In this document: piece by piece, positions 6,710 to 23,273 of the stretch
How the letters are laid out: every line of letters starts with the position of its first letter
Position numbering within the stretch: position 1 is the stretch's first letter
DNA from: a virus
Virus record (IMG/VR): IMGVR_UViG_3300045967_000017
Span: 1 to 40,114 of that record
Direction: 5' to 3' (one strand)
Length of the DNA: 40,114 nucleotides
Notes under the pieces: generated by a model
What the model saw: only the letters and a program-made list of their open reading frames with translations
What the model was told of the DNA's origin: nothing
The model's database searches: none
Translations under genes and position numbers: made by a program

Positions 6710-8062
6710 CTACGGCGTAACCACGCCGGTGTAGTTGGCGCCGGTGATGTAGGCGACAGCGGTATCGACCACCCGCCGCCAGGTGATCATCCGCTCGGCG
6801 CGGATGCCCACGCAGTTGTTCTGCCAGAGATTGAACGTCGCGGTGCTCGGATCAGCAGGAGCGTCGTTCATCTCGAGCGTCGCCTCGCGCGAGATCGAGA
6901 TCGAGACGCCGCCATCGTCGGCGATCATGATCCGGCTTGCGTCGATGATAGCCAGGATGCCTGCCGGAACTGCGTTGGAGATGACCGCCGGCACGCCGAG
7001 TATGTTGCCGGCATCGGCGCCCGTCGGGCTGAGATTCGGGAATTCAGCCTGACCGAGCGGATTTTTCAGCATGGCAAGCTGCATTCCGATCGTCTTCGTC
7101 GTGATGAAGACCGGCGTTTCGAAATCCGCCGCGGCGATCAGCAGCGCCTGGATGTCGGCGTTGGCGTCCTCCGATGCCGTTCCCGACGACGGAATGCCGA
7201 CCACGCCGTTGAGGATGGATCCCGGTCGCACGCCGGCCGCCGCCGCGATCGCCGGATCGATGAAGTTCTGATCGAGGAACTTGGTGATCACCTTGACCAG
7301 GTTGGAACGCACCTCGGTCTCGGCATTCGGCCGCGAGAACCTGACCAGTTCCTCCGACAGCACCACGATGCCGGCGACCTTGTTGACGCCCAGCGTCACC
7401 TCGCCGAATTTCATTTCACCGACCGGCTTGGCCTTGGCCTCACCGACCCACTTGACCAGGCTGTCCTGCAGCACGGTGACCAACCTGGTGTTGAACGGCA
7501 CGTATCTGAGGCCGGGAACGCGGCCGATGATCGTGGCCGGCCGGATAAGATCGAGGATCTCGTCGGCCATCGTCTGGTATTCGACCAGCGGCTTCGCCCA
7601 GTCGGCATCGGTCGTCGTGCCGGCGGTCACCGCCGCCTTCAGTGCAATCTCGACCTCAGGCGTCGAATTGTGCCACCGCTTGGCGATCTCGGCTGCCTGC
7701 ATCACGTTGCCCTGTGCCGCCGCATACGCCATCACGTAGCGGGTGAAGGCGGTGCCCTTGGGCAGGGTCTGCTTGAGCACGATGGCGCTGGCGCCGCTGC
7801 GGACTACCGCCGCCTCTTCCGGCGTTTTTGCTCCGCTCACCGGCGTGGCCCTGGCCTTGTTGAGCTTCTCGACCGCCTGCATGCGGGCGAGATCGGCGTC
7901 GACCGCCTTCAGCTCGTCCTCGAGCGTGTCGAATTCCTCCTGCTCCGCGGCGTCGGTCGAGCGGCCGTCCTCGGCCGTTTTCTGCATGATTTCCGTCATC
8001 CTTGCCGCCTTGGCGGCGCGGGTCGCTTCCAGCGAAGCGATCTGTTCGGCGAGCGTCTTCAT
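6710..8062 (-). CDS. Major capsid protein from internal start (nested in protease-capsid fusion)
   Basis: The ATG at 8062-8060, codon 184 of the fused frame, is preceded by AAAGGAGGG at 8078-8070 with 7 bases between. This is one of the best ribosome binding sequences in the window. Initiation here would give a 450-residue capsid protein with its delta-like coiled coil but without the protease. The head needs about 415 capsid copies and few protease copies, so a nested start fits the known stoichiometry. Nested starts are known in lambda C/Nu3. That both products are made is inferred; the motif and start are visible. Confidence 0.65.
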   Translation of the reverse strand: MKTLAEQIASLEATRAAKAARMTEIMQKTAEDGRSTDAAEQEEFDTLEDELKAVDADLARMQAVEKLNKARATPVSGAKTPEEAAVVRSGASAIVLKQTLPKGTAFTRYVMAYAAAQGNVMQAAEIAKRWHNSTPEVEIALKAAVTAGTTTDADWAKPLVEYQTMADEILDLIRPATIIGRVPGLRYVPFNTRLVTVLQDSLVKWVGEAKAKPVGEMKFGEVTLGVNKVAGIVVLSEELVRFSRPNAETEVRSNLVKVITKFLDQNFIDPAIAAAAGVRPGSILNGVVGIPSSGTASEDANADIQALLIAAADFETPVFITTKTIGMQLAMLKNPLGQAEFPNLSPTGADAGNILGVPAVISNAVPAGILAIIDASRIMIADDGGVSISISREATLEMNDAPADPSTATFNLWQNNCVGIRAERMITWRRVVDTAVAYITGANYTGVVTP

Positions 8063-8611
8063 GGCGCTGCCCTCCTTTCGTCGGGTTGCGCCCGTGACGC
8101 CGGGCAGGGTCTTGACGGAGCGCAGTCCCTGGCCGGTCGCGGCCCGCTGCGCTTCGTCGATGGATTTGATAGAGGTGATGCTGGCGTCCTGGTTGGCCGC
8201 GACGGTTACCGCCGACAGCTCCAGCCATTCCCAGCTCTTGAAGCGGGTGCCGCCCCAAGGGTTCTTCGCGTCGATCGCTTCACTTTCCAGCGCACGGAAC
8301 CCGATCGACAGGCCGCGCACCAGCTTCGACTTGATATAGCGCCAGGCCTTGTCGATCCCCTCGTCGACGCCCTTGACCACCGTAGCGGCGATCTCGATGC
8401 CGTCTTTCGACACCTTGGCTTCGGTGACGTGGCCGATCGGCTGGCGGCTGTCATGCTGGTAAAGCAGCGGCAGCGGCAGCGCGAACTTCACGCCCTCAGG
8501 CTCGACGATGTCCTCCATGCGGTCGGGCGAAGGCGTCGAGGCGATGCCGCGGATCTCGCGTTTGTCCTCGTCGACCGACTTGATGTCGAGAACGGCATAG
8601 GCGCGGTTCAT
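6710..8611 (-). CDS. Prohead protease fused to HK97-fold major capsid protein
   Basis: 633 residues in one frame. Residues 1-180 match the S78/U35 prohead protease family: LYQHDSRQPIGHV (His53), VRGLSIGF (Ser102) and ELSAVTVAAN near 131-140. From about residue 184 a coiled-coil segment (EQIASLEATRAAKAARM) resembles the scaffolding delta domain. The HK97-fold capsid follows, with ITKFLDQNFIDPAI, VFITTKTIGMQLAMLK and an end in ERMITWRRVVDTAVAYI. In HK97 phages the protease digests the delta domains during head maturation. The start at 8611 forms ATGA with the terminase stop. A strong internal ribosome site at codon 184 suggests that capsid is also made separately (see 6710-8062). Confidence 0.92.
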   Translation of the reverse strand: MNRAYAVLDIKSVDEDKREIRGIASTPSPDRMEDIVEPEGVKFALPLPLLYQHDSRQPIGHVTEAKVSKDGIEIAATVVKGVDEGIDKAWRYIKSKLVRGLSIGFRALESEAIDAKNPWGGTRFKSWEWLELSAVTVAANQDASITSIKSIDEAQRAATGQGLRSVKTLPGVTGATRRKEGSAMKTLAEQIASLEATRAAKAARMTEIMQKTAEDGRSTDAAEQEEFDTLEDELKAVDADLARMQAVEKLNKARATPVSGAKTPEEAAVVRSGASAIVLKQTLPKGTAFTRYVMAYAAAQGNVMQAAEIAKRWHNSTPEVEIALKAAVTAGTTTDADWAKPLVEYQTMADEILDLIRPATIIGRVPGLRYVPFNTRLVTVLQDSLVKWVGEAKAKPVGEMKFGEVTLGVNKVAGIVVLSEELVRFSRPNAETEVRSNLVKVITKFLDQNFIDPAIAAAAGVRPGSILNGVVGIPSSGTASEDANADIQALLIAAADFETPVFITTKTIGMQLAMLKNPLGQAEFPNLSPTGADAGNILGVPAVISNAVPAGILAIIDASRIMIADDGGVSISISREATLEMNDAPADPSTATFNLWQNNCVGIRAERMITWRRVVDTAVAYITGANYTGVVTP

Positions 8612-10299
8612 GGCTGGCCTCCCACAAAAAACAGCTGCCCCTTCGGCACGTGCATCGGCTGCGGGTTGCGGCCGGCCAGCATCATGGCGTCGAACAAGGC
8701 GACCAGCGGATCGATCTTGGCCTTGCCGGCGGCCTGCTTGGTGATCAGCACGGCATTGCCGCGCTGCTCGGCCTTGGCGTTGCCGACGCACCACGCCATC
8801 AGCCGGGATCCGGCGTGCCACAGCGTGCCGTCCTTCAACGCCCGCTCGGAGGACCACACCGCGCCGGTGAGCCGGTATCCCTGGCTGATGCCGATCACCT
8901 GGCCCTCGCCGATGCCGTTCAGCGCCAGTTCGTTGACCAGGTCGGAAATGCCGTGTAGGTCGACGCCGACCGCCGCCTTTTCGGGCAGCAGCTCGGCTTC
9001 CTTCAGCCTGGCGACGATGGCCGCGACCTCCTCGATGTCCTGCGTCGGCCGCTCGCAGATCACCAGGTCGCCATCGGCGGCGAAGTCCTCCAGCCGCTGC
9101 GCGGTGTCGCGGCGCCGCTCGAGAACGTCGGTATGCGCCCACGCGCGCGACCACAGCAGCCAGTCGCGGGTCGTCCGGTCGCGGCCGAGCACCGCCAGGC
9201 CGAGCAGATCGTCGAGGCCGCCGCCGTCAATGCCGACCACCGCGACGTCGCAGCGTTCGATCAGGCTATCCAGCGTGATCGACGGATCGGCGGCATCTTC
9301 CCAATAGTCCGCGCCGGCCCAGCGGTCGTCGTGCAGCGCCAGGCCGATCTCGACGTTGAGGTGCTGCGAGGCCCAGCGCCGCTCCTCCTCCTCGCCCTTC
9401 TCCTGCGCGGTCGCCCAGTCGGCGACCAGCCGGTCGAGCGTTATCGACTTGCCGAGGTTCGGCAGCACCATCGGCCAGTGGCGCGGATCCTGCCATTCGG
9501 CCGACCGCTGCATCGATTCCGGGAACTCGTAGAGCACCGGCAGCATGCGGCCGTCCTTGACGCGTCCGTCACGAACGCCGCGCGCATAGCCGAGCTCGGC
9601 CCGGAACACGCCCGCCGGCGGCTGGTCGGACTGCGTCGAGATGAAGATCAGGAAGGCTTCCGGGTTGGCGATCACGCCGCCGCGGATCTGGCCGATGACG
9701 CGGCCGGCGAACGCCATCGTCGACATCAGGTGCAGCTCGTCGACCAGCACGCCGGCCGGCTTGGCGCCGGTCATCACCTTGAGGTCGAAGGTCTTCACCT
9801 TCAGCCTGGCCTTGGTCTTGCGGTCGAGGATGGTCTTGATGTGCTCCTGCACGAGGAAGCGTTTCGGCAGGTAGCCTTCCGGATCCGCGTCGATCATGCC
9901 GGCCGCCTGCTGGAAGGCGAGGTCGGCGACTTCCTGCGTCGGCCCGACCAGGATGAATTCCGCGCGCGGCCGCCTGTTCATCAACAGCGCCGTCACCATG
10001 ATCGCCGCGCCGCCGGTGGTCTTGGAGTTCTTCTTCGGCACCAGCGCGAACACTTCCGGCACCTGGCGGTTGCCGTTCTCGTCGAGCGAGCCGAACACCG
10101 CGCGGACGATATCGCGCTGCCACTGCCCGGCCGCATCGGCGAGCGCCGGCCGTCCCGGCACGTCAGGCAGCCTAAGCTTGCCGAAGATCCCGAGCGCCCG
10201 CTCGCCTTCGGCATCGTCGAGAGGTAGATCGGGAAGCAGCGAGCGCCCCTGCCGCAAGCGTGCGTCCCAGTCCGGGCAGGTGAAGCTCCAGCCGCTCAT
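8608..10299 (-). CDS. Terminase large subunit (HK97 type)
   Basis: 563 residues. This is the ATPase and nuclease that packages DNA into proheads. The variant Walker A is in ALVPKKNSKTT near residues 88-98, the usual HK97-like form lacking the classical GKT. Walker B is GVLVDELHL. The C-terminal nuclease domain starts at VVGIDGGGLDDLLGLAVLG (RNase H-like fold). I chose the ATG at 10299 because it forms ATGA with the small subunit stop; an in-frame ATG at 10317 is possible. It is followed directly by the protease-capsid gene, also through ATGA. With the HNH gene upstream, this suggests a cos-type packaging system. Confidence 0.95.
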   Translation of the reverse strand: MSGWSFTCPDWDARLRQGRSLLPDLPLDDAEGERALGIFGKLRLPDVPGRPALADAAGQWQRDIVRAVFGSLDENGNRQVPEVFALVPKKNSKTTGGAAIMVTALLMNRRPRAEFILVGPTQEVADLAFQQAAGMIDADPEGYLPKRFLVQEHIKTILDRKTKARLKVKTFDLKVMTGAKPAGVLVDELHLMSTMAFAGRVIGQIRGGVIANPEAFLIFISTQSDQPPAGVFRAELGYARGVRDGRVKDGRMLPVLYEFPESMQRSAEWQDPRHWPMVLPNLGKSITLDRLVADWATAQEKGEEEERRWASQHLNVEIGLALHDDRWAGADYWEDAADPSITLDSLIERCDVAVVGIDGGGLDDLLGLAVLGRDRTTRDWLLWSRAWAHTDVLERRRDTAQRLEDFAADGDLVICERPTQDIEEVAAIVARLKEAELLPEKAAVGVDLHGISDLVNELALNGIGEGQVIGISQGYRLTGAVWSSERALKDGTLWHAGSRLMAWCVGNAKAEQRGNAVLITKQAAGKAKIDPLVALFDAMMLAGRNPQPMHVPKGQLFFVGGQP

Positions 10300-12078: not shown

Positions 12079-12274
12079 TTTCGCTCTCCTTTTCCGGGCT
12101 CAGGTTTTCACGTGAAACGACACATCATCAGGGCACGTCGGGCAGGAGCCAAGCATTTAGACGTATGGGGGAATCCGGACTCATTGTGTGCGCGTGTCCG
12201 CGCGTATGAATCAAGAATCCCCCATACGTGGAAAAGGGGCGGAAGTGCCCAACGTGCCCTGACATTGTTTTCAT
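12079..12274. other. Intergenic region with nested inverted repeats
   Basis: No gene seen in 196 bases. It holds a perfect palindrome TTTCACGTGAAA at 12106-12117. An outer inverted repeat has 11-base arms, TCAGGGCACGT at 12128-12138 and its complement at 12252-12262. An inner one has 12-base arms, ACGTATGGGGGA at 12161-12172 and its complement at 12218-12229. The region separates the primase-helicase gene from the late genes. It is a candidate for the late promoter region, the replication origin, or a structured RNA leader. Confidence 0.75.
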
Positions 12275-13651
12275 TCATAAATTTAGCTCGTCCTTTGGCG
12301 GCCGATGTTCCTTGAATCTCATCCCCAGGTAGCCGCGCACTCCATCCCGCTTGTGCTGGTTGAAACCCTTGCGGCGGTTGATAGCGACGACGAACTGCTT
12401 GCGCGTGCCGATCTTCTCGCCGGTGTTCTTGCAGAACAGCGACCATTCGCCGAAAAGAGCCTGGCGGCTCAGGAAGGCCTTCTCATCGGCCGGCGCGAAG
12501 TCGATCGTTTCCTCGATCCAGCCGCCGAGCACGTCCTCGCCCTCGAGATATTCCTCGGTGGCGTCCATCACGGCCGGCGGCGGCTGCAGGCCCATCGCGG
12601 ACCAGTGGCGGGCGCCCTCGATCATCCAGGCCAGGATGCCAGGCCATTCGAGCCTGAGTAGCTGCTCGAGCCCGAAGATGCGCTCGCTGGCCGGAATCCT
12701 CACCGTGAAGGGGATGATCTGCATCCGGCGCCGCCAGGCCTCGTCGACGCCCTTGAGCTCAGGCTTATGGTTGCCCGAAACCATCAGCTTGAGCACCGGC
12801 CTGTATTCGAAGAAATCCATGCGCATGAAACGCGCCGAGATGGTTTCGCCGCCGGTCAGCGTCTTGATCCGCGTCTCGTCCCATCTGCGGCCTTCCGCGG
12901 TTTCGGACGCCACCACCAGCCTGGCGCCCTGCAGGTTGGCGAGCTCGGTCGGGTGGCGATCGTTGCCGGTCTGCGAGAAGGCGTCGATCGCCGCGGTCTT
13001 CGCATAGTCGCCCATGACGCCGGAAATGGTGTTGACGAAGGTCGTCTTGCCGTTGCCGCCGGGGCCGTAGAGGAAGAACAGGCACTGCTCCTGCGTCGAG
13101 CCGGTAAGGCAATAGCCGCAGACCCGCTGAAGATAGTCGACCAGGGCGGCATCGCCGGCCGTCACCTTTTCGAGGAACTCGATCCACAGCGGGCAATCGC
13201 CGGACGGCTTCACGGTCGTGGACTTGGTCAGGTAGTCGCCGGGAATCGCCATCCGGCTGAAGCGGTCGTCGTCGAGCTGGTGCACCTCGCCGCGGCAGTT
13301 GAGCGCCATCGGGTCATGGTCCCATTGGTCGACGACGGCCGCCAGGATCGGATCGGAGCGCGCCAGCGACACGATCGCGTTGACGGTCCTGGCCGACAGG
13401 ATCTTGGCTTTCATGGTCTTCGAGGCGGCGATCGAGTCTTCGCGGCAGAGCGCGCGGGATTCCGAATAGACGCGCATCAGTTCGTCGCGCACCCACATCT
13501 CGCCGTCGTAGATCATCCAGCGGTTCCAGTCCGAGACGTATCGGAAGAACGACGAATGGCGCCGTGCGAACTCCAGCGCCAGCGCCTCGTCGGTATGTTC
13601 CTTGACCTCTGGTGAGGCTGCTGTCGCATCGCGTGGCGTCTCATCCTTCAC
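12275..13651 (-). CDS. D5/P4-type primase-helicase (SF3 ATPase)
   Basis: 458 residues. The C-terminal superfamily 3 helicase is clear: Walker A GPGGNGKTT at 196-204, Walker B-like RLVVASE at 244-250, sensor-like SGNHKP at 292-297, and the D5 family pattern FRYVSDWNRWMIYDG near the N-terminus. These enzymes unwind phage DNA at replication start. No primase active-site domain is visible, so this may be the helicase part only. I chose the GTG at 13651 because it forms GTGA with the stop of the preceding gene; an ATG further upstream in frame would add residues of shadow-like composition. It is the last clear replication gene before the late region. Confidence 0.88.
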   Translation of the reverse strand: MKDETPRDATAASPEVKEHTDEALALEFARRHSSFFRYVSDWNRWMIYDGEMWVRDELMRVYSESRALCREDSIAASKTMKAKILSARTVNAIVSLARSDPILAAVVDQWDHDPMALNCRGEVHQLDDDRFSRMAIPGDYLTKSTTVKPSGDCPLWIEFLEKVTAGDAALVDYLQRVCGYCLTGSTQEQCLFFLYGPGGNGKTTFVNTISGVMGDYAKTAAIDAFSQTGNDRHPTELANLQGARLVVASETAEGRRWDETRIKTLTGGETISARFMRMDFFEYRPVLKLMVSGNHKPELKGVDEAWRRRMQIIPFTVRIPASERIFGLEQLLRLEWPGILAWMIEGARHWSAMGLQPPPAVMDATEEYLEGEDVLGGWIEETIDFAPADEKAFLSRQALFGEWSLFCKNTGEKIGTRKQFVVAINRRKGFNQHKRDGVRGYLGMRFKEHRPPKDELNL

Positions 13652-13937: not shown

Positions 13938-14219
13938 ATGAAGATCGTGTGGGACGAAAAGAAGCGGCTGGACAACATCAGGGATCACGAAGGTTATGAC
14001 TTCGCTTCCCTCGGGAACGCCGATGGCTTCACGGCCGAGGGTGAGGCGTTCTTCACCACTGCCACGATCGTCGTTGCGAAGAAAGGAAGGCGGATGGCGA
14101 TCGGCCCGCTTGAGGGTCACACGATTGCCGTCGTCTATGCCCGGCTGGGCAGCGAGGCAATCTCGCTGGTGAGCATGCGCCGGGCCGACCGGGCTGAAAG
14201 GAGGCTTCACCATGGCTGA
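13938..14219 (+). CDS. brnT: BrnT-family toxin (ribonuclease)
   Basis: 93 residues, the usual BrnT size. Family features are visible: MKIVWDEKKRLDNIRDHEG at the start, an IGPLEGHTIAVVYAR segment, and SLVSMRRADRAERRLHH at the end. BrnT folds like RelE and cuts RNA, slowing translation until BrnA binds it. The gene overlaps brnA by 8 bases and has the expected toxin-first order. It runs against the surrounding leftward early operon, so lytic transcription would pass through it in antisense. It may stabilise the prophage or exclude other phages; both are inference. Confidence 0.85.
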   Translation: MKIVWDEKKRLDNIRDHEGYDFASLGNADGFTAEGEAFFTTATIVVAKKGRRMAIGPLEGHTIAVVYARLGSEAISLVSMRRADRAERRLHHG

Positions 14220-14550
14220 CAAACGAAAGATCAATTTGCGGGAAGTGCCCGATGACAAATGGTCGGACGCGCATGAGGCCGAGCTGCAACGGCGCATCGC
14301 CGCCAATCCCGACGACTGGTCGCCTGGCGACGACGAAAAGGTCGAGCTGAGGACGTTCGCCGAAGAGTTTCCTGCGGCCGCGGAGGAGATCGCCCGCAAG
14401 AAGCTCGGTCGGCCACCGGTGGGCGAAGCACCCAAGCGCGCCGTCAAGCTGCGTCTGGATGCCGACGTGATCGAGCGGTTCAAGGCCGGTGGCGCCGGCT
14501 GGCAGACGCGCATGAACCAGGCGCTGCGCAAGGCGGCGGGGCTGCGGTAA
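14212..14550 (+). CDS. brnA: BrnA-family antitoxin
   Basis: 112 residues. The C-terminal half carries the BrnA signature: GRPPVGEAPKRAVKLRLDADVIERFKAGGAGWQTRMNQ in outline, a ribbon-helix-helix DNA-binding domain. The N-terminal half (KINLREVPDDKWSDAHEAELQRRI) should wrap the toxin. BrnA neutralises BrnT and represses the shared promoter, most likely at the inverted repeat 13885-13929. The start overlaps the end of brnT, giving coupled translation. It ends four bases before the stop of the convergent gene at 14555. Confidence 0.88.
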   Translation: MADKRKINLREVPDDKWSDAHEAELQRRIAANPDDWSPGDDEKVELRTFAEEFPAAAEEIARKKLGRPPVGEAPKRAVKLRLDADVIERFKAGGAGWQTRMNQALRKAAGLR

Positions 14551-14554
14551 GGCG

Positions 14555-14740
14555 TCACCTTTCGCCTCCGCGCCGCTCGTCGAGCTCGAGCGCCGACACG
14601 AGCTCGTCGACCGCGTCGATCAGCTCCTGGCGCGCTTCTTGCCGCGCCTCCTTGTCGTTGGCGCGCCAGACCACGATGATCAGCCATTCCTCGAAGGCCT
14701 CGAGCGCGGCGCTCAGGATCTCTGCCTGCTCCGGTGTCAT
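14555..14740 (-). CDS. Small acidic helical protein of unknown function (61 aa)
   Basis: 61 residues, largely helical and rich in Glu and Ala (AEILSAALEAFEEWLIIVVWRAND, then ARQELIDAVDELVSALEL). No membrane segment of convincing length. The start overlaps the stop of the VRR-NUC gene (ATGA), so it belongs to the leftward early operon. It is the last gene of that operon before brnTA. No family recognised. Confidence 0.6.
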   Translation of the reverse strand: MTPEQAEILSAALEAFEEWLIIVVWRANDKEARQEARQELIDAVDELVSALELDERRGGER

Positions 14741-15168
14741 GCCGCTACCTCGATCGATCGTTTGAGCGCGCCCCAGGCCTTCAGCTGCTCGATGGCGCCG
14801 CCATAGCTGTCGACCCAGGCGGACAGGCCTCCAGCGTCCGCCAGATCGGCCAGGAACGCGTGTTGGGCGTCGGTGGGTCTTTCCCCCCGCCTCTTGAGCT
14901 CGAGCGCGTGGAGGCGGCCTGAGGGCGGCGCTACGAGCAGGAAATCGGAGACGCCCGGCCTAGTCCCCATTCTTTTCAGCCGGGCGCCAGCGCCATCCGG
15001 CCTCAGTTCCCCGTTCGGGCAGTGGAACCAGAGCCAGCCTGGTGCGAGATTGACGCGGATGGTGTCAGCGATCGCGCAATGGGTCGCGAATTCGGCGGCG
15101 GCAGGCGGCTTCGTGCCGCGCTGGCGGCGCGGATCCTTCAACAGGTCGAGTTGCCGCCAGGCGGTCAT
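14737..15168 (-). CDS. VRR-NUC domain nuclease
   Basis: 143 residues. The PD-(D/E)XK-type VRR-NUC core is visible: GTRPGVSDFLLVAPPSGRLHALELKRRGERPTDAQ in outline, giving the acid in GVSD, the ELK pair in ALELK and the trailing Gln. Phage VRR-NUC proteins are structure-specific nucleases acting on branched or flap DNA in replication and recombination. The start at 15168 was chosen because it forms ATGA with the stop of the methyltransferase gene. Residues upstream in frame have shadow composition. Confidence 0.85.
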   Translation of the reverse strand: MTAWRQLDLLKDPRRQRGTKPPAAAEFATHCAIADTIRVNLAPGWLWFHCPNGELRPDGAGARLKRMGTRPGVSDFLLVAPPSGRLHALELKRRGERPTDAQHAFLADLADAGGLSAWVDSYGGAIEQLKAWGALKRSIEVAA

Positions 15169-15854
15169 GCGGCGGCCTCGTCGACTTCGTTCCCCCAGGC
15201 ATCCCATCCTGGTCGTGGCGGCCCGCGACGGTTGAGCTCGATCTTGGGTATGGTCGGATAATATTGCTCGATCATTTCGAGGAAGCATTCCGGCTTGGCC
15301 GAATGCGAGCCGCGCGCCGCCTCGATCAGCGATGGCCATTGCGTGCCGGGAGCCGGACAGGGAATCTTGCCGCGCGTACCGATCAGCAGCAATTCATGCC
15401 GGCTTCGGTTCCAGCGGCCGAGCCCGATGCGATCTTTGCCCCAGCAGTAGTTGGACTTGTATTCGAAGCCCCAGGCATCCATGACATCGAGCGCTATGCG
15501 CAGATGCTGGTTGGTCGTCCACAACCACAGAGCGCAGTCCTGGGCGGCGATCGACGGCACGTCGCGCGCCTTGATCACCTCGATCGAGCTCGTCGGATAA
15601 TGATTGGCGGCATGGCGGTCCATGCCGGTATCTTCACCCCACACGGAATCGTGCCATTCAGGATCAGAAACGATCACGCCATAACGGCGATCGGGAAACG
15701 CCAGGATACGGCTGGCCAGTTGCCGCTCGCGATCGGCGCGCCGTTCGGCTTTCGGGTTTGCGGCAGCTTTCGCCCTGGCGAGCTTTTTGCGATGGCGTCG
15801 CACTCGCTCGGCGACAGTCATCGGACCTTTTTTGAACAGCGTCGAGCGCGACAT
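15165..15854 (-). CDS. MT-A70 family DNA adenine methyltransferase, DPEW variant
   Basis: 229 residues. MT-A70 enzymes transfer methyl from S-adenosylmethionine to adenine N6. The catalytic motif appears as Asp64-Pro65-Glu66-Trp67 (VIVSDPEWHD) instead of the usual DPPW. Later family features are ALWLWTTNQHLRIALDVMDAW, SRHELLLIGTRG, and the C-terminal GPPRPGWDAWGNE, which helps bind the cofactor. The basic N-terminus (RHRKKLARAKA) may bind DNA. It lies in the early operon with a GcrA-like regulator and two nucleases. It could protect phage DNA from host nucleases or change methylation-dependent transcription. The effect of Glu66 on activity is unknown. Confidence 0.88.
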   Translation of the reverse strand: MSRSTLFKKGPMTVAERVRRHRKKLARAKAAANPKAERRADRERQLASRILAFPDRRYGVIVSDPEWHDSVWGEDTGMDRHAANHYPTSSIEVIKARDVPSIAAQDCALWLWTTNQHLRIALDVMDAWGFEYKSNYCWGKDRIGLGRWNRSRHELLLIGTRGKIPCPAPGTQWPSLIEAARGSHSAKPECFLEMIEQYYPTIPKIELNRRGPPRPGWDAWGNEVDEAAA

Positions 15855-15884
15855 TTCGTTACGCCTCCATGTAACGAAAAGAGG

Positions 15885-16277
15885 TCATTTCAGGATGTCC
15901 CGCAGACGCAGCAGAACGACATCGAAGCGGCCACCGTCGCCGGCTCTCGATCGACGTCGACCCTGCTTGTAGGCTTCACGCGCCAGCTTTTTCAGCCGCT
16001 CGGTCGGGAACATCAGATAGCAGAGCGTTTCGCCGTCGCGCTTGAGCTCGTGCACCCAGACGCCGGCCTGCGTCGCGGCGATGCCGGATGGCCGGCCATC
16101 CTGGCGATATTCAATGCATATGTTGCCGGTTTCCTCCCATTGATGGCTTTCGCTCTTGAGCTCGATCTTGTGGATGTCGGCATGTTCAAAAATCTCGGCC
16201 AGCCGGCGCTCGTCGATCAGCGCCTGACTGAGCTGCATGTCGAACTTGTTGTCCCGGCCGAATATGATCTCGCCCAT
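15885..16277 (-). CDS. PD-(D/E)XK-like nuclease (putative)
   Basis: 130 residues. The order FGRDNKFDMQLSQALIDE, IHKIELKSESHQWEETGNICIEY and RPSGIAATQAGVWVHEL matches the layout of small phage and plasmid restriction-fold nucleases: a first acid, then E-x-K (IELKS), then a TGNICIEY strand. Such enzymes act on branched DNA or as Holliday-junction resolvases. Recognition is by pattern. AAGGA lies 6-7 bases before the ATG. It sits between the methyltransferase and a small basic protein in the leftward early operon. Confidence 0.65.
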   Translation of the reverse strand: MGEIIFGRDNKFDMQLSQALIDERRLAEIFEHADIHKIELKSESHQWEETGNICIEYRQDGRPSGIAATQAGVWVHELKRDGETLCYLMFPTERLKKLAREAYKQGRRRSRAGDGGRFDVVLLRLRDILK

Positions 16278-16365
16278 CTCGTCCTTCCGTTCTGTCGGCC
16301 GCCGCGCGCTTGGGTCATGAACCGGCTGATCGCGGCGGCCTCTCCGGGCCTCGTTGCACGGAGCT

Positions 16366-16734
16366 CTAGTCTCGAATGAATTGCCGCCTGGCCTTGCGCT
16401 CGTCGCCGCGCGATGCCGGCCGCGCGAGATCCCGCCGCGTCTCGGCGATCGCCGCCTCGAGGCGAACGATCAGTTTTTCCGCTTCAAGGTCGGTGTAGTC
16501 GTAATTGGCGCGGTTGCGGCCGAATGCGCCGATCAGATCGAGCGCCACCAGGGCGGCCTCCATGCGCTTGCCGGAGCTCCGTAGATAACGCTCGCGGGGC
16601 GTCTCGTTCTCCGGAATTGGCGCGCGGCCGTTGCCGCGTTTCTTCCTGCTTGCCCGCTTCCTGGGCGGCGGCTGCGGCGGCGCGGCCGGCTGCTCGATGA
16701 TCTCGCCGGTCGTCGGATCGAATTCGTCTGTCAT
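16366..16734 (-). CDS. Early protein of unknown function (122 aa)
   Basis: 122 residues. The N-terminal 45 are proline-, lysine- and arginine-rich (PQPPPRKRASRKKRGNGR) and likely disordered and nucleic-acid binding. The remainder is helical (MEAALVALDLIGAFGRNR, then DLEAEKLIVRLEAAIAETRRDL). No family recognised. The ATG at 16734 overlaps the stop of the GcrA-like gene (ATGA), so the two are co-translated. It may act together with that regulator. Confidence 0.65.
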   Translation of the reverse strand: MTDEFDPTTGEIIEQPAAPPQPPPRKRASRKKRGNGRAPIPENETPRERYLRSSGKRMEAALVALDLIGAFGRNRANYDYTDLEAEKLIVRLEAAIAETRRDLARPASRGDERKARRQFIRD

Positions 16735-17192
16735 GACCATCCCTTTCCTTTTCCCGTGAAGGCCAGCGCGGCGTGGTGTTCGCAGTAGGTGTCGAGCGTC
16801 GCCGCGCCGCAGAACCGCTGACCGCCGATCACGCCCGGATCCTCCTCGACCGCAAAGCGGCATTCGAAGCGTCTGAGCTCGAGCAGCCCGACGCGGCGCA
16901 TCGCTGGCGCCGGATGGGTCGCTCGAATAATCGGCTCGGGCTCTGGCGGTGGTGGCGGCGGCCGCCGCGGCGGCGCTGGCGGCGGTGGAGCCGGTTTCCT
17001 GGCGACGGCTTTCTTTTCGGGGCGAGGCCGCGCGCTCGATCTGCGCATCATCTGCAATGTCCTGTTGCGGTGGATGATGCCGGCGATCGAGCCGCGCGTC
17101 GTCTCGAGCCTGGCGGCGATCGCGGCGCGCGTGAGTCCAGCAGCAAGCAGCCTGGCGACCGCGTCTTGCGCTTCGGGTGTCCAAATTGTCAT
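16731..17192 (-). CDS. GcrA-family transcription regulator
   Basis: 153 residues. GcrA of alphaproteobacteria binds sigma-70 RNA polymerase and activates promoters whose GANTC sites are methylated by CcrM. Here the N-terminal HTH is WTPEAQDAVARLLAAGLTRAAIAARLETTRGSIAGIIHRNR in outline (residues 4-44). A long proline-rich linker (about 60-95) follows. The C-terminal domain has the FCGxxxLDTYCEHH signature near 127-140. It is shorter in identity to cellular GcrA than the fold would allow for certainty of function, and the proline run is unusual. It lies in the first part of the leftward early operon and could reprogramme host sigma-70 transcription after infection. Confidence 0.85.
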   Translation of the reverse strand: MTIWTPEAQDAVARLLAAGLTRAAIAARLETTRGSIAGIIHRNRTLQMMRRSSARPRPEKKAVARKPAPPPPAPPRRPPPPPPEPEPIIRATHPAPAMRRVGLLELRRFECRFAVEEDPGVIGGQRFCGAATLDTYCEHHAALAFTGKGKGWS

Positions 17193-17415
17193 GCGGGCCG
17201 AGAGGCTTCCTTCCTGCGGCGTCTGGGTCGGGCCGCGCGCCTCTCGAGCAGGAAGGAAGAACGGATACTGCCGGTCAGCGGTTGAAACTGACCGGCAGTC
17301 CGTCGCCGTATCCTCCGGTACTCGAGACACACCCGGAAGAGGGCAAAAGACGCGGGCTGGCAAAACAAAGGCCCCCACGACGCCCGCCGGCGTGGTTGCC
17401 GAAGCTTCCAGCGGT
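17193..17415 (-). other. Structured leader between cro-like and gcrA-like genes
   Basis: 223 bases without a gene. It contains a perfect 12-base inverted repeat, CTTCCTTCCTGC at 17206-17217 with its complement at 17248-17259. There is also a perfect 11-12-base hairpin with arms at 17267-17278 and 17288-17299 and a 9-base loop, flanked by a further short pairing (GGATAC at 17263-17268 against GTATCC at 17308-17313). These would form in the leftward early transcript and could act as attenuator or antitermination sites. Confidence 0.7.
17362..17396 (-). terminator. Possible intrinsic terminator after cro-like gene
   Basis: On the minus strand, about 20 bases after the cro-like stop, CCACG and CGTGG pair around a GC-rich loop and are followed by GGGCCTTTGTTTTG. 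The stem is short and imperfect and the T tract is broken, so termination would be partial. Confidence 0.35.
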
Positions 17416-17676
17416 TTAGACGCCGCCGGCGGCCCTCCGCTGGACGTCGGGCTCAACAGGATAAAGATCGGGGCGAAGAACGTGGCGCGAGACGCCAGAG
17501 GCCTTCTCGATGGGAATCGCCTGGTCAGCCGGAATCATGCCGCGATACTTCCACGTGGTCACATGGCTGCGGGTCTTGCCGATCAACTCGGCAAGTCTCG
17601 TTTCGCCGCCTACAGCTTCACATGCTTTTGCGAGAGCTGCACGCCGCTCGGAGTGAACCGCTGCCTGCTCAACCAT
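17416..17676 (-). CDS. Cro/YdaS-like repressor
   Basis: 86 residues. The pattern ALAKACEAVGGETRLAELIGKTRSHVTTWKYRGMIPADQAIPIEKASGVSRHVLRPDLYP, in pieces, is that of the YdaS/Cro-like HTH family: a helix-turn-helix, then IP-x-x-A-x-x-IE and LRPDLYP. Such proteins favour the lytic state by blocking repressor transcription. I chose the ATG at 17676; a TTG at 17682 is in frame. A promoter reading this way (TTGACT, 16 bases, TATGTA at 17690-17685) would start transcription almost at the ATG. It is divergent from the CI-like gene. Confidence 0.85.
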   Translation of the reverse strand: MVEQAAVHSERRAALAKACEAVGGETRLAELIGKTRSHVTTWKYRGMIPADQAIPIEKASGVSRHVLRPDLYPVEPDVQRRAAGGV

Positions 17677-17749
17677 ATGCAAATTACATACAATTGTAGG
17701 CTATCAAGTCAATGCCAAAGTATGCAAAGTGCCGTCTACATTGGTAGGC
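17677..17749. promoter_or_regulatory. Lysis-lysogeny switch: leftward promoter and operators O1, O2
   Basis: Two TAC-N4-GTA sites: O1 at 17689-17698 (TACAATTGTA, fully palindromic) and O2 at 17737-17746. Both read GCCTAC-N3-TGTA when extended on the minus strand. The leftward promoter has -35 TTGACT (17712-17707) and -10 TATGTA (17690-17685), with O1 covering its -10 side. O2 ends four bases before the CI-like ATG, so it is placed for autoregulation. Confidence 0.7.
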
Positions 17750-18091
17750 ATGGCAACGTTCGGCGACAGAGTGCGGGAGGAGCGTGAGGCGAGGGGCTGG
17801 AGCTTGCAGCGCCTAGCCGACGAAGTTACGACCATTGCCCGGGAGACATGCCCCCGGGTGACGATCGAGAAGATCGAAGCGCGCAGCTCCAAGCATTCTA
17901 GATGGGCGCATCCGATCGCGCTGGCTCTCGGTGTCAATCCAGATTGGCTGGTCAATGGCGCCGGCCCGAAGGTCCTCAGGCGAAGCCTTGATCGCAGGAT
18001 GCAGCTGCTTCCGACGACCGACTATGATGAGCTTTACCACCAGTTCGATACGCTGATAGACGAGCGCCTGCGCAGGCGCACCGGGACATAG
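17750..18091 (+). CDS. CI-like prophage repressor, short form
   Basis: 113 residues with an N-terminal XRE-type helix-turn-helix (FGDRVREEREARGWSLQRLADEV, then RVTIEKIEARSS, and ALALGVNPDWLVNG). The C-terminal 40 residues are helical. It lacks the LexA/CI self-cleavage domain, so induction cannot follow the lambda route of RecA-stimulated autoproteolysis unless another factor is used. I chose the ATG at 17750; a GTG at 17729 would place operator O2 inside the gene. It is divergent from the Cro-like gene and precedes operators O3 and O4. The likely role is keeping both early operons silent in lysogens. Confidence 0.85.
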   Translation: MATFGDRVREEREARGWSLQRLADEVTTIARETCPRVTIEKIEARSSKHSRWAHPIALALGVNPDWLVNGAGPKVLRRSLDRRMQLLPTTDYDELYHQFDTLIDERLRRRTGT

Positions 18092-21884: not shown

Positions 21885-21905
21885 AAGTTGCCAGCTTGGC
21901 AACTT
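21885..21905 (+). terminator. Perfect palindromic hairpin with T-rich tail
   Basis: Arms AAGTTGCCA at 21885-21893 and TGGCAACTT at 21897-21905, three-base loop, followed by TTCTTCTT. It begins three bases after the stop of the AlpA-like gene. It may end the rightward operon. The TTGCCA element also recurs around the integrase, so it may be a protein-binding site as well. Confidence 0.5.
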
Positions 21906-21911
21906 TTCTTC

Positions 21912-21940
21912 TTGGCATTGTTGCCAAGTTGGCATATGTG
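21912..21940 (+). promoter_or_regulatory. Promoter and operator of the integrase operon
   Basis: TTGGCA (21912-21917), 17 bases, TATGTG (21935-21940). The spacer holds the palindrome TGCCAA-G-TTGGCA at 21922-21934. The layout suggests repression by a small HTH protein, possibly the one encoded next. AAAGGA lies 10-11 bases before the ATG at 21967. Confidence 0.5.
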
Positions 21941-21966
21941 TTGGTCATATGGAAAGGAACACACCA

Positions 21967-22155
21967 ATGACCAACGAAGATCTTGCCGCCGCGATGAAGG
22001 CATGGCGCGGCAAAGCCACGCAACGCGAAGCCGCTGCGCGGTTGGGCATCACGACGCGGACGCTGCAGGGCATCGAACATGGCCGCGGCATCGCCCATCC
22101 GTCGCTGCTGCTGATCGCCCTCAAGGCGGTCAAGAATCCGGAGGCAATGAAATGA
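21967..22155 (+). CDS. Small HTH protein upstream of integrase (62 aa)
   Basis: 62 residues. Almost the whole protein is one helix-turn-helix: LAAAMKAWRGKATQREAAARLGITTRTLQGIEHGRG, of XRE type. It overlaps the integrase ATG (ATGA), so the two are made together. It may repress its own promoter at the TTGCCAA palindromes just upstream, setting integrase level, or help excision. Small autoregulators before integrases are known in other phages. The specific site is inferred. Confidence 0.75.
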   Translation: MTNEDLAAAMKAWRGKATQREAAARLGITTRTLQGIEHGRGIAHPSLLLIALKAVKNPEAMK

Positions 22156-23273
22156 AGCACCCCGACTATCCAGGCGTCTCCAGTTTCAAAGACCGATACG
22201 GCAAAGACCGTTATCGCTTTCGCGATGGCGGCGGCAGGCGGGTGACCATCCCCGGCGAACCGCACTCGCCCGCTTTCGATGCTGCCTATCAGGCCGCCAT
22301 CGAAGGCCGCGCCGTGCCACAGGCCAAGATCGTACGCCATCCGCGCGCCGCCAGCCCGCACAGCCTGCTCGACTGCTGGTTCCGGGTGCGCAACCTCAAG
22401 AGCTGGTGGGACGCGCTGGATCCGCTCACGCGGGACAATTACAGCCATGAGATCGAGACGTTTCTCGACAGCAAGTCTCCCGGCGGCGGCAAGTGGGGCG
22501 ACGGTCCGGTCGAAGATTTCAAGCCGCGCCACGTCCGTGACATCATGGAAAGGCTGACGCCCTCACGCGCCCGCATCCTGATGACCGTGCTGCGCCGCAT
22601 GATGAAGGAAGCGATCCTCCAGGAGTGGATCGAATACGATCCGACCCGCGTCGGCATCGACCTGCCGAAGCGCAAGAACAAGAACGGCCACAAGGCATGG
22701 CCGCCGCACTTCTGCGCCAAGTTCGAATTGCGCTGGCCGCTCGGCACGACGGCGCGCACGGCTTATGAGCTGGCGCGCTGGATGGGCGCCAGGCGATCTG
22801 ACATCGCCCTGCTGCGCCACGACCAGATGGTCACAAAGCTGATCGACGGCGAGCGCGTGGACGGCTTCCTGTTCGTCCAGCACAAGGGCCGCAACCGTGA
22901 CGGCGCATTCGAGAAATTCCATCCGTTGAACGACATGCTCGTCGAGGCCATCGCGGCGCGACCGGCGACCGGCGACACCGTCCTCGCGAAGCCGGATGGC
23001 TCGCCCTACAACATGAGGTCGCTATCTTCGATGATGCAGCGCGATTGGGCGCCAGCGGCCGGCATCCCGGCTGGCTACACCCTGCACGGCCTGCGCAAGG
23101 CGATGGGCGGCATGCTCGCCGACGCCGGTGCGACCGCCGCCGAGTCCCGCGATGCGCTTGGCCATGCGACGTTCAAGGAAGCGGAGTTTTATGGCCGCTC
23201 GCGCGATCAGGCCAAGGCGGCGACGAACGGTATGCGCAAGGTGCTCAGGCTGGTGCGTGGCGATGAAAAGTGA
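22152..23273 (+). CDS. int: Tyrosine recombinase (phage integrase)
   Basis: 373 residues, normal length. Integrates and excises the prophage at att sites. Catalytic residues can be placed: Arg214 (MGARRSDIALL), Lys245 (VQHKGRN), His312 and Arg315 (YTLHGLRK), His338 (LGHAT) and nucleophile Tyr347 (AEFYGRS). The N-terminal part (residues 1-60) resembles an arm-binding beta domain (GVSSFKDRYGKDRYRF), and 70-165 the SAM-like core-binding domain. It overlaps the small HTH gene upstream. The next gap holds repeated TTTGCCA elements and is the likely attP. Confidence 0.93.
   Translation: MKHPDYPGVSSFKDRYGKDRYRFRDGGGRRVTIPGEPHSPAFDAAYQAAIEGRAVPQAKIVRHPRAASPHSLLDCWFRVRNLKSWWDALDPLTRDNYSHEIETFLDSKSPGGGKWGDGPVEDFKPRHVRDIMERLTPSRARILMTVLRRMMKEAILQEWIEYDPTRVGIDLPKRKNKNGHKAWPPHFCAKFELRWPLGTTARTAYELARWMGARRSDIALLRHDQMVTKLIDGERVDGFLFVQHKGRNRDGAFEKFHPLNDMLVEAIAARPATGDTVLAKPDGSPYNMRSLSSMMQRDWAPAAGIPAGYTLHGLRKAMGGMLADAGATAAESRDALGHATFKEAEFYGRSRDQAKAATNGMRKVLRLVRGDEK

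Follow-up and report, generated by a model that had tools for sequence, protein, structure and literature searches.

The stretch of viral DNA analyzed here (the window; 40,114 nucleotides, IMG/VR record IMGVR_UViG_3300045967_000017) encodes on its minus strand a GcrA-like protein of 153 amino acids and, as the third gene downstream, a methyltransferase of the MT-A70 family (Table 1), just as an earlier note on this DNA had claimed. The four genes from gcrA through the 123-aa and 130-aa genes to the MT-A70 gene are separated by gaps of at most 88 bp. They belong to a leftward set that starts with a Cro/YdaS-like gene facing a repressor-like gene, continues to the VRR-NUC gene and reaches, past BrnT/BrnA, a D5-type primase-helicase. 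No match to the product of the 123-aa gene was obtained in Pfam and PHROG searches. The BrnT/BrnA toxin-antitoxin pair (13938-14550, plus strand) runs against the direction of the early set and is near-identical in the related viral contig L004.

The earlier note placed gcrA and the methyltransferase gene in one early operon. This arrangement is plausible from the gene order, and the common strand and short intergenic distances fit as well. However, gcrA is preceded by a 223-bp gap with a hairpin, and a pattern scan found no sigma-70-type promoter. The leader hairpin is strong (-55.7 kcal/mol, z = -6.7 against shuffles), had no match in an Rfam search, and was present in the close relative L002 but in no other viral contig searched. 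Its conservation between L002 and the window was rejected as a special signal, because identity is 90-100% throughout the block that runs from cro into gcrA. An attenuator or an operator are possible functions of this element.

A weak integrase match of the gene at 21888-23273 indicates that the phage is probably temperate. Its terminase relatives are found mostly in Alphaproteobacteria, which, together with the depletion of GANTC sites described below, makes an alphaproteobacterial host with CcrM likely. The terminases of two records listed as a Nostoc phage (L005) and a Microcystis phage (L006) are 56-57% identical to that of the window, and GANTC is depleted in both; their true hosts may be alphaproteobacteria present in the cultures. 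The order of the head genes is unusual: a single open frame (6710-9154, minus strand) covers both the prohead protease and the major capsid protein, and the portal gene comes behind that of the capsid.

Table 1. Features of the gcrA-like locus and the probable origin in the window, and stand-alone GcrA domains in other viral contigs (L numbers).
Feature	Position	Strand	Basis or remark
Probable replication origin, directly following the primase-helicase gene	12113-12277		Dyad with 9-bp iterons on either side (GGGCACGTT GGGCACTTC, also in inverted orientation)
VRR-NUC nuclease gene	14737-15282	-	PF08774, E=2.2e-5; overlaps MT-A70 3' end
MT-A70 methyltransferase gene, 229 aa	15165-15854	-	PF05063, E=1.7e-18; phrog_359 (DNA methyltransferase), E=1.1e-56
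Catalytic motif (motif IV) DPEW, residues 64-67	15654-15665	-	Instead of the usual DPPW
130-aa gene	15885-16277	-	phrog_13596, E=2.3e-14
123-aa gene	16366-16737	-	Overlaps the gcrA stop; present in L002, L355, L356
gcrA-like gene, 153 aa	16731-17192	-	PF07750 (GcrA), phrog_16311, PDB profile and Foldseek matches
C-terminal sigma-interacting domain, about residues 100-145, C..C..C..H	16758-16895	-	Structural match to 5yix_B
N-terminal helix-turn-helix (HTH) DNA-binding domain, residues 1-45	17058-17192	-	Aligned to Caulobacter GcrA DNA-binding domain 5yiu
Gap before gcrA, 223 bp	17193-17415	-	Strong inverted repeat ACTGCCGGTCAG...CTGACCGGCAGT at about 17267-17299
Cro/YdaS-like regulator gene, leads the leftward set	17416-17682	-	PF15943, E=8e-16
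Divergent HTH repressor-like gene	17729-18091	+	phrog_4 (transcriptional repressor), E=2.4e-9
Stand-alone GcrA sigma-interacting domains without DNA-binding domain	L104:3308-3502, L156:351-578, L255:3909-4043, L266:2268-2396		Same gene regions as MT-A70

A Probable Phage Lineage of GcrA

The GcrA-like protein matches Pfam family PF07750 with 51.6 bits (cut-off 26.9; E=1.8e-13), and the alignment of its residues 4-147 to profile positions 3-147 spans both GcrA domains. An independent search of the whole record made the GcrA call at the same place. The protein also matches phrog_16311 (E=4.5e-14), which PHROGs annotates as of unknown function. When a profile of 30 phage GcrA sequences, led by the window protein, was compared with the PDB, it matched the cryo-EM structure of Caulobacter GcrA (7ye1, chain 7ye1_G; E=1.7e-44) as well as the sigma-interacting domain on its own (5yix; E=4e-18). 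With an AlphaFold2 model of the window protein (mean pLDDT 84.6), the top Foldseek match was the sigma-interacting domain 5yix_B (probability 0.99); 7ye1_G and 7ye2_G came next, and the Foldseek E-values were weak because the domains are short. By the domain bounds of host GcrA (PMC7403470), model and matches give a layout of N-terminal HTH, proline-rich linker and C-terminal sigma-interacting domain. On these profile and fold matches, the protein is a member of the GcrA family. Neither tblastn against sequenced phages nor a scan of close-relative genomes with the protein gave a match, probably because it is diverged and rich in proline.

Compared with the GcrA of Caulobacter crescentus (5yiu, 5yix, 7ye1), the window protein shares the N-terminal HTH, a disordered linker and a C-terminal domain with the C, C, C and H residues. 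The three HTH helices (residues 6-17, 22-29, and 33-42 of the model) are well predicted, with a pLDDT of about 95. However, the DNA-binding domain retains only 10 of the 22 positions that are invariant in 23 chromosomal GcrAs; in place of the Caulobacter sequence RNAVIGKVHRL it has RGSIAGIIHRN, one residue is deleted, and about half of the invariant residues are altered. The sigma-interacting domain keeps nine of the 13 chromosomal invariants, including all four C/C/C/H residues. C111, C128, C137, and H140 are invariant across the alignment of 30 phage sequences, and in a wider phage set the three cysteines remain so, the histidine nearly so (78/81), while the DNA-binding domain is variable. 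The window copy lacks the Trp-Pro of host GcrA (CRFA replaces CKWP), which the near relative L002 retains, and binding to sigma could therefore be weakened. In a phylogenetic tree of 85 columns, which resolved few forks, the window protein falls into a supported branch (SH-aLRT 96) of 18 rows, all from phages or prophages, apart from the 23 chromosomal copies. Given this all-phage branch and the diverged DNA-binding domain, the protein looks like a member of a long-standing phage GcrA lineage rather than a recently captured host gene.

Phage homologues of GcrA are already known, and the window protein adds one more. Those reported, with functions that are inferred only, are gp222 of phiCbK (PMC3556154), gp5 of Atu_ph08 (PMC6630229), ORF4/5 of Brucella phage Y17 (PMC11836647), and copies in phiLM21-like prophages of S. 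meliloti (PMC12429752). The phiCbK homologue shares 41 residues with bacterial GcrA (PMC3556154) and that of Atu_ph08 is 89.7% identical to a bacterial protein (PMC6630229), whereas the window copy is more diverged and resides in the early region of a temperate-type phage. Profile scans of loci anchored on terminase, MT-A70, GcrA, primase or cytosine methyltransferase (best matches per scan) yielded 123 phage GcrA-family matches, of which 102 were non-redundant at 90% identity, a filter applied to this census alone. Both domains were found in 77 of these, the HTH alone above threshold in 18, and the sigma-interacting domain alone in seven. Four of the latter seven are encoded as small genes of their own; the products, 43-76 aa long, are likewise assigned to GcrA by Pfam and are candidate decoys for sigma-70 or GcrA. 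Across phage GcrAs the sigma-binding part is the constant element, and the adjacent methyltransferases are interchangeable. In another contig (L130:1-990, minus strand), a GcrA-type sigma-interacting domain opens a longer protein whose later part appears ParB-like by eye.

The MT-A70 Methyltransferase

Besides the matches listed in Table 1, the MT-A70 enzyme was recognized by the PADLOC model for type II methyltransferases (E=3.9e-44). Its nearest solved relative is METTL3, the fold of which was recovered by Foldseek (E=2e-13) and by a profile search of the PDB (E=3e-16). The enzyme shares the fold and the conserved sequence of the METTL3/MT-A70 family (PF05063), but it has DPEW in place of DPPW, no partner subunit was seen, and it lacks the N-terminal extension (ParB-like, DUF3102 or other) found in most phage relatives, as judged from those fully read. 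The DPEW motif occurs in 64 of 68 related viral MT-A70 enzymes with a readable motif, in a search and sampling pattern biased toward DPEW. As a feature common to the subfamily, it is, on this distribution, the norm of these phage enzymes and probably not a sign of decay. By its domain family, the enzyme is not a CcrM: a search of the 40-kb record, which may be incomplete, for the CcrM-type family PF01555 (N6_N4_Mtase) gave no match.

Independent Exchange of gcrA and the Methyltransferase Gene

The closest relatives of the window phage, L002 and L004, retain GcrA and have a swapped MT-A70 gene. In L004, identity to the window is 99.4% downstream, starting at the VRR-NUC gene, and 87% upstream, starting at the 130-aa gene; between these, the MT-A70 gene reaches only 66% identity and encodes a different, DUF3102-like N-terminus. 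L355 keeps the flanking genes but not GcrA; in the slot of the window's MT-A70 gene it has a member of the PhiLM21_p027 methyltransferase family. L356 has neither gcrA nor a methyltransferase gene. Among the nearest relatives, gcrA and the MT-A70 gene have been gained, lost, and swapped independently of each other.

Co-occurrence was counted in samples of viral loci, each made up of the best 80 matches of a scan with a single anchor gene (70 for GcrA), irrespective of host taxonomy and kinship and with flanks that cover varying amounts of the early region. GcrA-like genes were present in 16 of 79 MT-A70-anchored and in 21 of 80 cytosine methyltransferase-anchored loci; thus, proximity of GcrA to MT-A70 is not special. 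At the same time, viral contigs with phage methyltransferase genes commonly encode sigma cofactors of the GcrA family, with proportions between roughly a fifth and a quarter in these two gene-anchored samples. Within the cytosine methyltransferase sample, MT-A70 occurred in 8/21 loci with and 13/59 loci without GcrA, an association that is not significant (p=0.16). A primase-anchored sample contained neither GcrA nor MT-A70 and hence was uninformative as a control. Methyltransferases of the GANTC type were absent from the 79 MT-A70 loci, but this was not read as a functional exclusion, since cytosine methyltransferases were also found in 0/79 of them and the other samples gave no exclusion.

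GANTC Sites and a Probable Replication Origin

The window contains 51 GANTC sites, about four-fold fewer than the 208 expected from shuffles and also below a Markov estimate of 87. This depletion resembles that of the alphaproteobacterial phages compared and is unlike the contrast regions from Lysobacter and Noviherbaspirillum. The extended motif YGAKTCK occurs only six times in the window. The earlier note had suggested a count of GANTC in phage promoters; the early divergent promoter region (17683-17749) contains none, in a record that is depleted throughout. According to a published survey, GcrA motifs show no positional bias in phage genomes (PMC9437464).

Four GANTC sites are clustered within 45 bp at 12171-12219, between the replication and the late genes (P about 0.001 if 51 sites are spread uniformly). 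All four lie within a dyad, ACGTAT...GCGCGnnnnCGCGC...ATACGT, of an element that is probably the replication origin. The same layout after the primase gene is found in L095 and L355, with iterons GGGCA.. or GGAGCACTT and one GANTC each.

Proposed Function

GcrA is a cofactor that binds domain 2 of sigma-70, and in the host it helps to open promoters beside methylated GANTC (PMC7403470). With the sigma-interacting domain conserved, action of the phage protein on the host sigma-70 holoenzyme, by rewiring of transcription or by competition, is a natural inference, and this part of the earlier interpretation stands. Since most of the sigma-binding part is preserved while the DNA-binding part has diverged, a cofactor that redirects the host polymerase is the simplest model. 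A prophage operon in Brevundimonas whose expression depends on GcrA (PMC7987155; see below) shows that phage genes do come under this kind of control. The reading that we favor, with moderate confidence, is a phage-adapted sigma-70 cofactor encoded next to an independent DNA-modification gene. What we infer about sigma binding, about retargeting and when it takes place, and about the task of the methyltransferase is as follows. The GcrA-like protein probably docks on host RNA polymerase, with its C-terminal domain binding domain 2 of the housekeeping sigma factor. The diverged HTH would then send the polymerase to a set of promoters, either phage middle or late promoters or promoters of the host, which need not bear the host's methylated GANTC mark; methylation, if relevant, would be supplied by host CcrM. 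Competition with host GcrA would be a built-in effect of such a cofactor. The MT-A70 enzyme would be a separate, exchangeable cassette for DNA modification that, most simply, shields phage DNA from host restriction. Should the protein indeed redirect host polymerase independently of methylation, GcrA function would be split into its two halves, and the contribution of the DNA-binding domain would become testable.

Competition might also be the main role of the protein, which would occupy sigma-70 domain 2, displace host GcrA and stall or shift the host cell cycle, activating no promoters itself. The constancy of the sigma-interacting domain beside a degenerate DNA-binding domain agrees with this rather unlikely alternative, and the free-standing domains of related phages fit a decoy role. 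However, the window protein retains a well-predicted HTH, and the presence of both domains in 77 of the 102 phage copies points to a role for DNA binding in the majority of phages. Those free-standing domains would be direct tools to block host GcrA and may interest more than the main finding. The earlier note had gone further in linking the GcrA-like protein to the MT-A70 enzyme through methylation, a link that it flagged as inference. That the enzyme methylates the sites read by the GcrA-like protein is very unlikely, although both genes run in the same direction at a short distance and non-CcrM GANTC methyltransferases are encoded beside replication genes in alphaproteobacterial phages (PMC5537653). 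Relatives, numbers, family, and sites all speak against the MT-A70 gene (METHYLTRANSFERASE) as the partner of GcrA, and the pairing is not supported: the two genes are swapped and lost independently, they show no excess co-occurrence over the cytosine methyltransferase control, the enzyme is no CcrM, and GANTC is depleted. Moreover, L355 has a GANTC-type enzyme yet no GcrA, and the DNA-binding domain of the window protein has lost roughly half of the host GcrA invariants. What speaks slightly for a pair is that phiLM21-type methyltransferases are GANTC-specific (PMC5537653) and that a member of this family occupies the slot in L355. Like the window enzyme, the PhiLM21_p027 family (NPPW/Y/F) comprises m6A-type methyltransferases encoded beside the replication genes of alphaproteobacterial phages, but the former has the MT-A70 fold and the DPEW motif and represents a different family. 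Similarly unlikely is a complete epigenetic writer and reader of the phage's own, in which MT-A70 replaces the GANTC-type enzyme of the related phage's slot and the diverged GcrA-like protein reads its mark and steers the host polymerase, so that phage promoters are no longer tied to host CcrM. The MT-A70 gene has the appearance of an exchangeable cassette, not that of a partner dedicated to GcrA.

Under another scenario, the GcrA-like protein would activate the late genes via GANTC sites at 12171-12219 that are methylated by host CcrM. The cluster of four sites lies exactly in the gap before these genes, and the GcrA-dependent expression of a 26-gene structural operon of a prophage in Brevundimonas subvibrioides (PMC7987155) makes GcrA-type control of phage genes possible. 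However, the sites sit in an inverted repeat with 9-bp iterons, as would be expected of an origin, and a palindrome automatically doubles the GANTC count. Furthermore, none of the four clustered sites fits the extended motif. With only one GANTC in the more origin-like iteron and hairpin element of L095 and L355, the cluster was no longer taken for a GcrA-driven late promoter, and the scenario is improbable. GANTC clusters upstream of terminase in other phages were not used as evidence, since several of those read lie inside replication-type genes (L027, L048, L093, L139). Three such clusters in other alphaproteobacterial phages (L139:2432-2542, L048:7194-7284, L093:6741-6890) form part of repeated palindromes inside these genes and are perhaps origins where CcrM methylation could matter.
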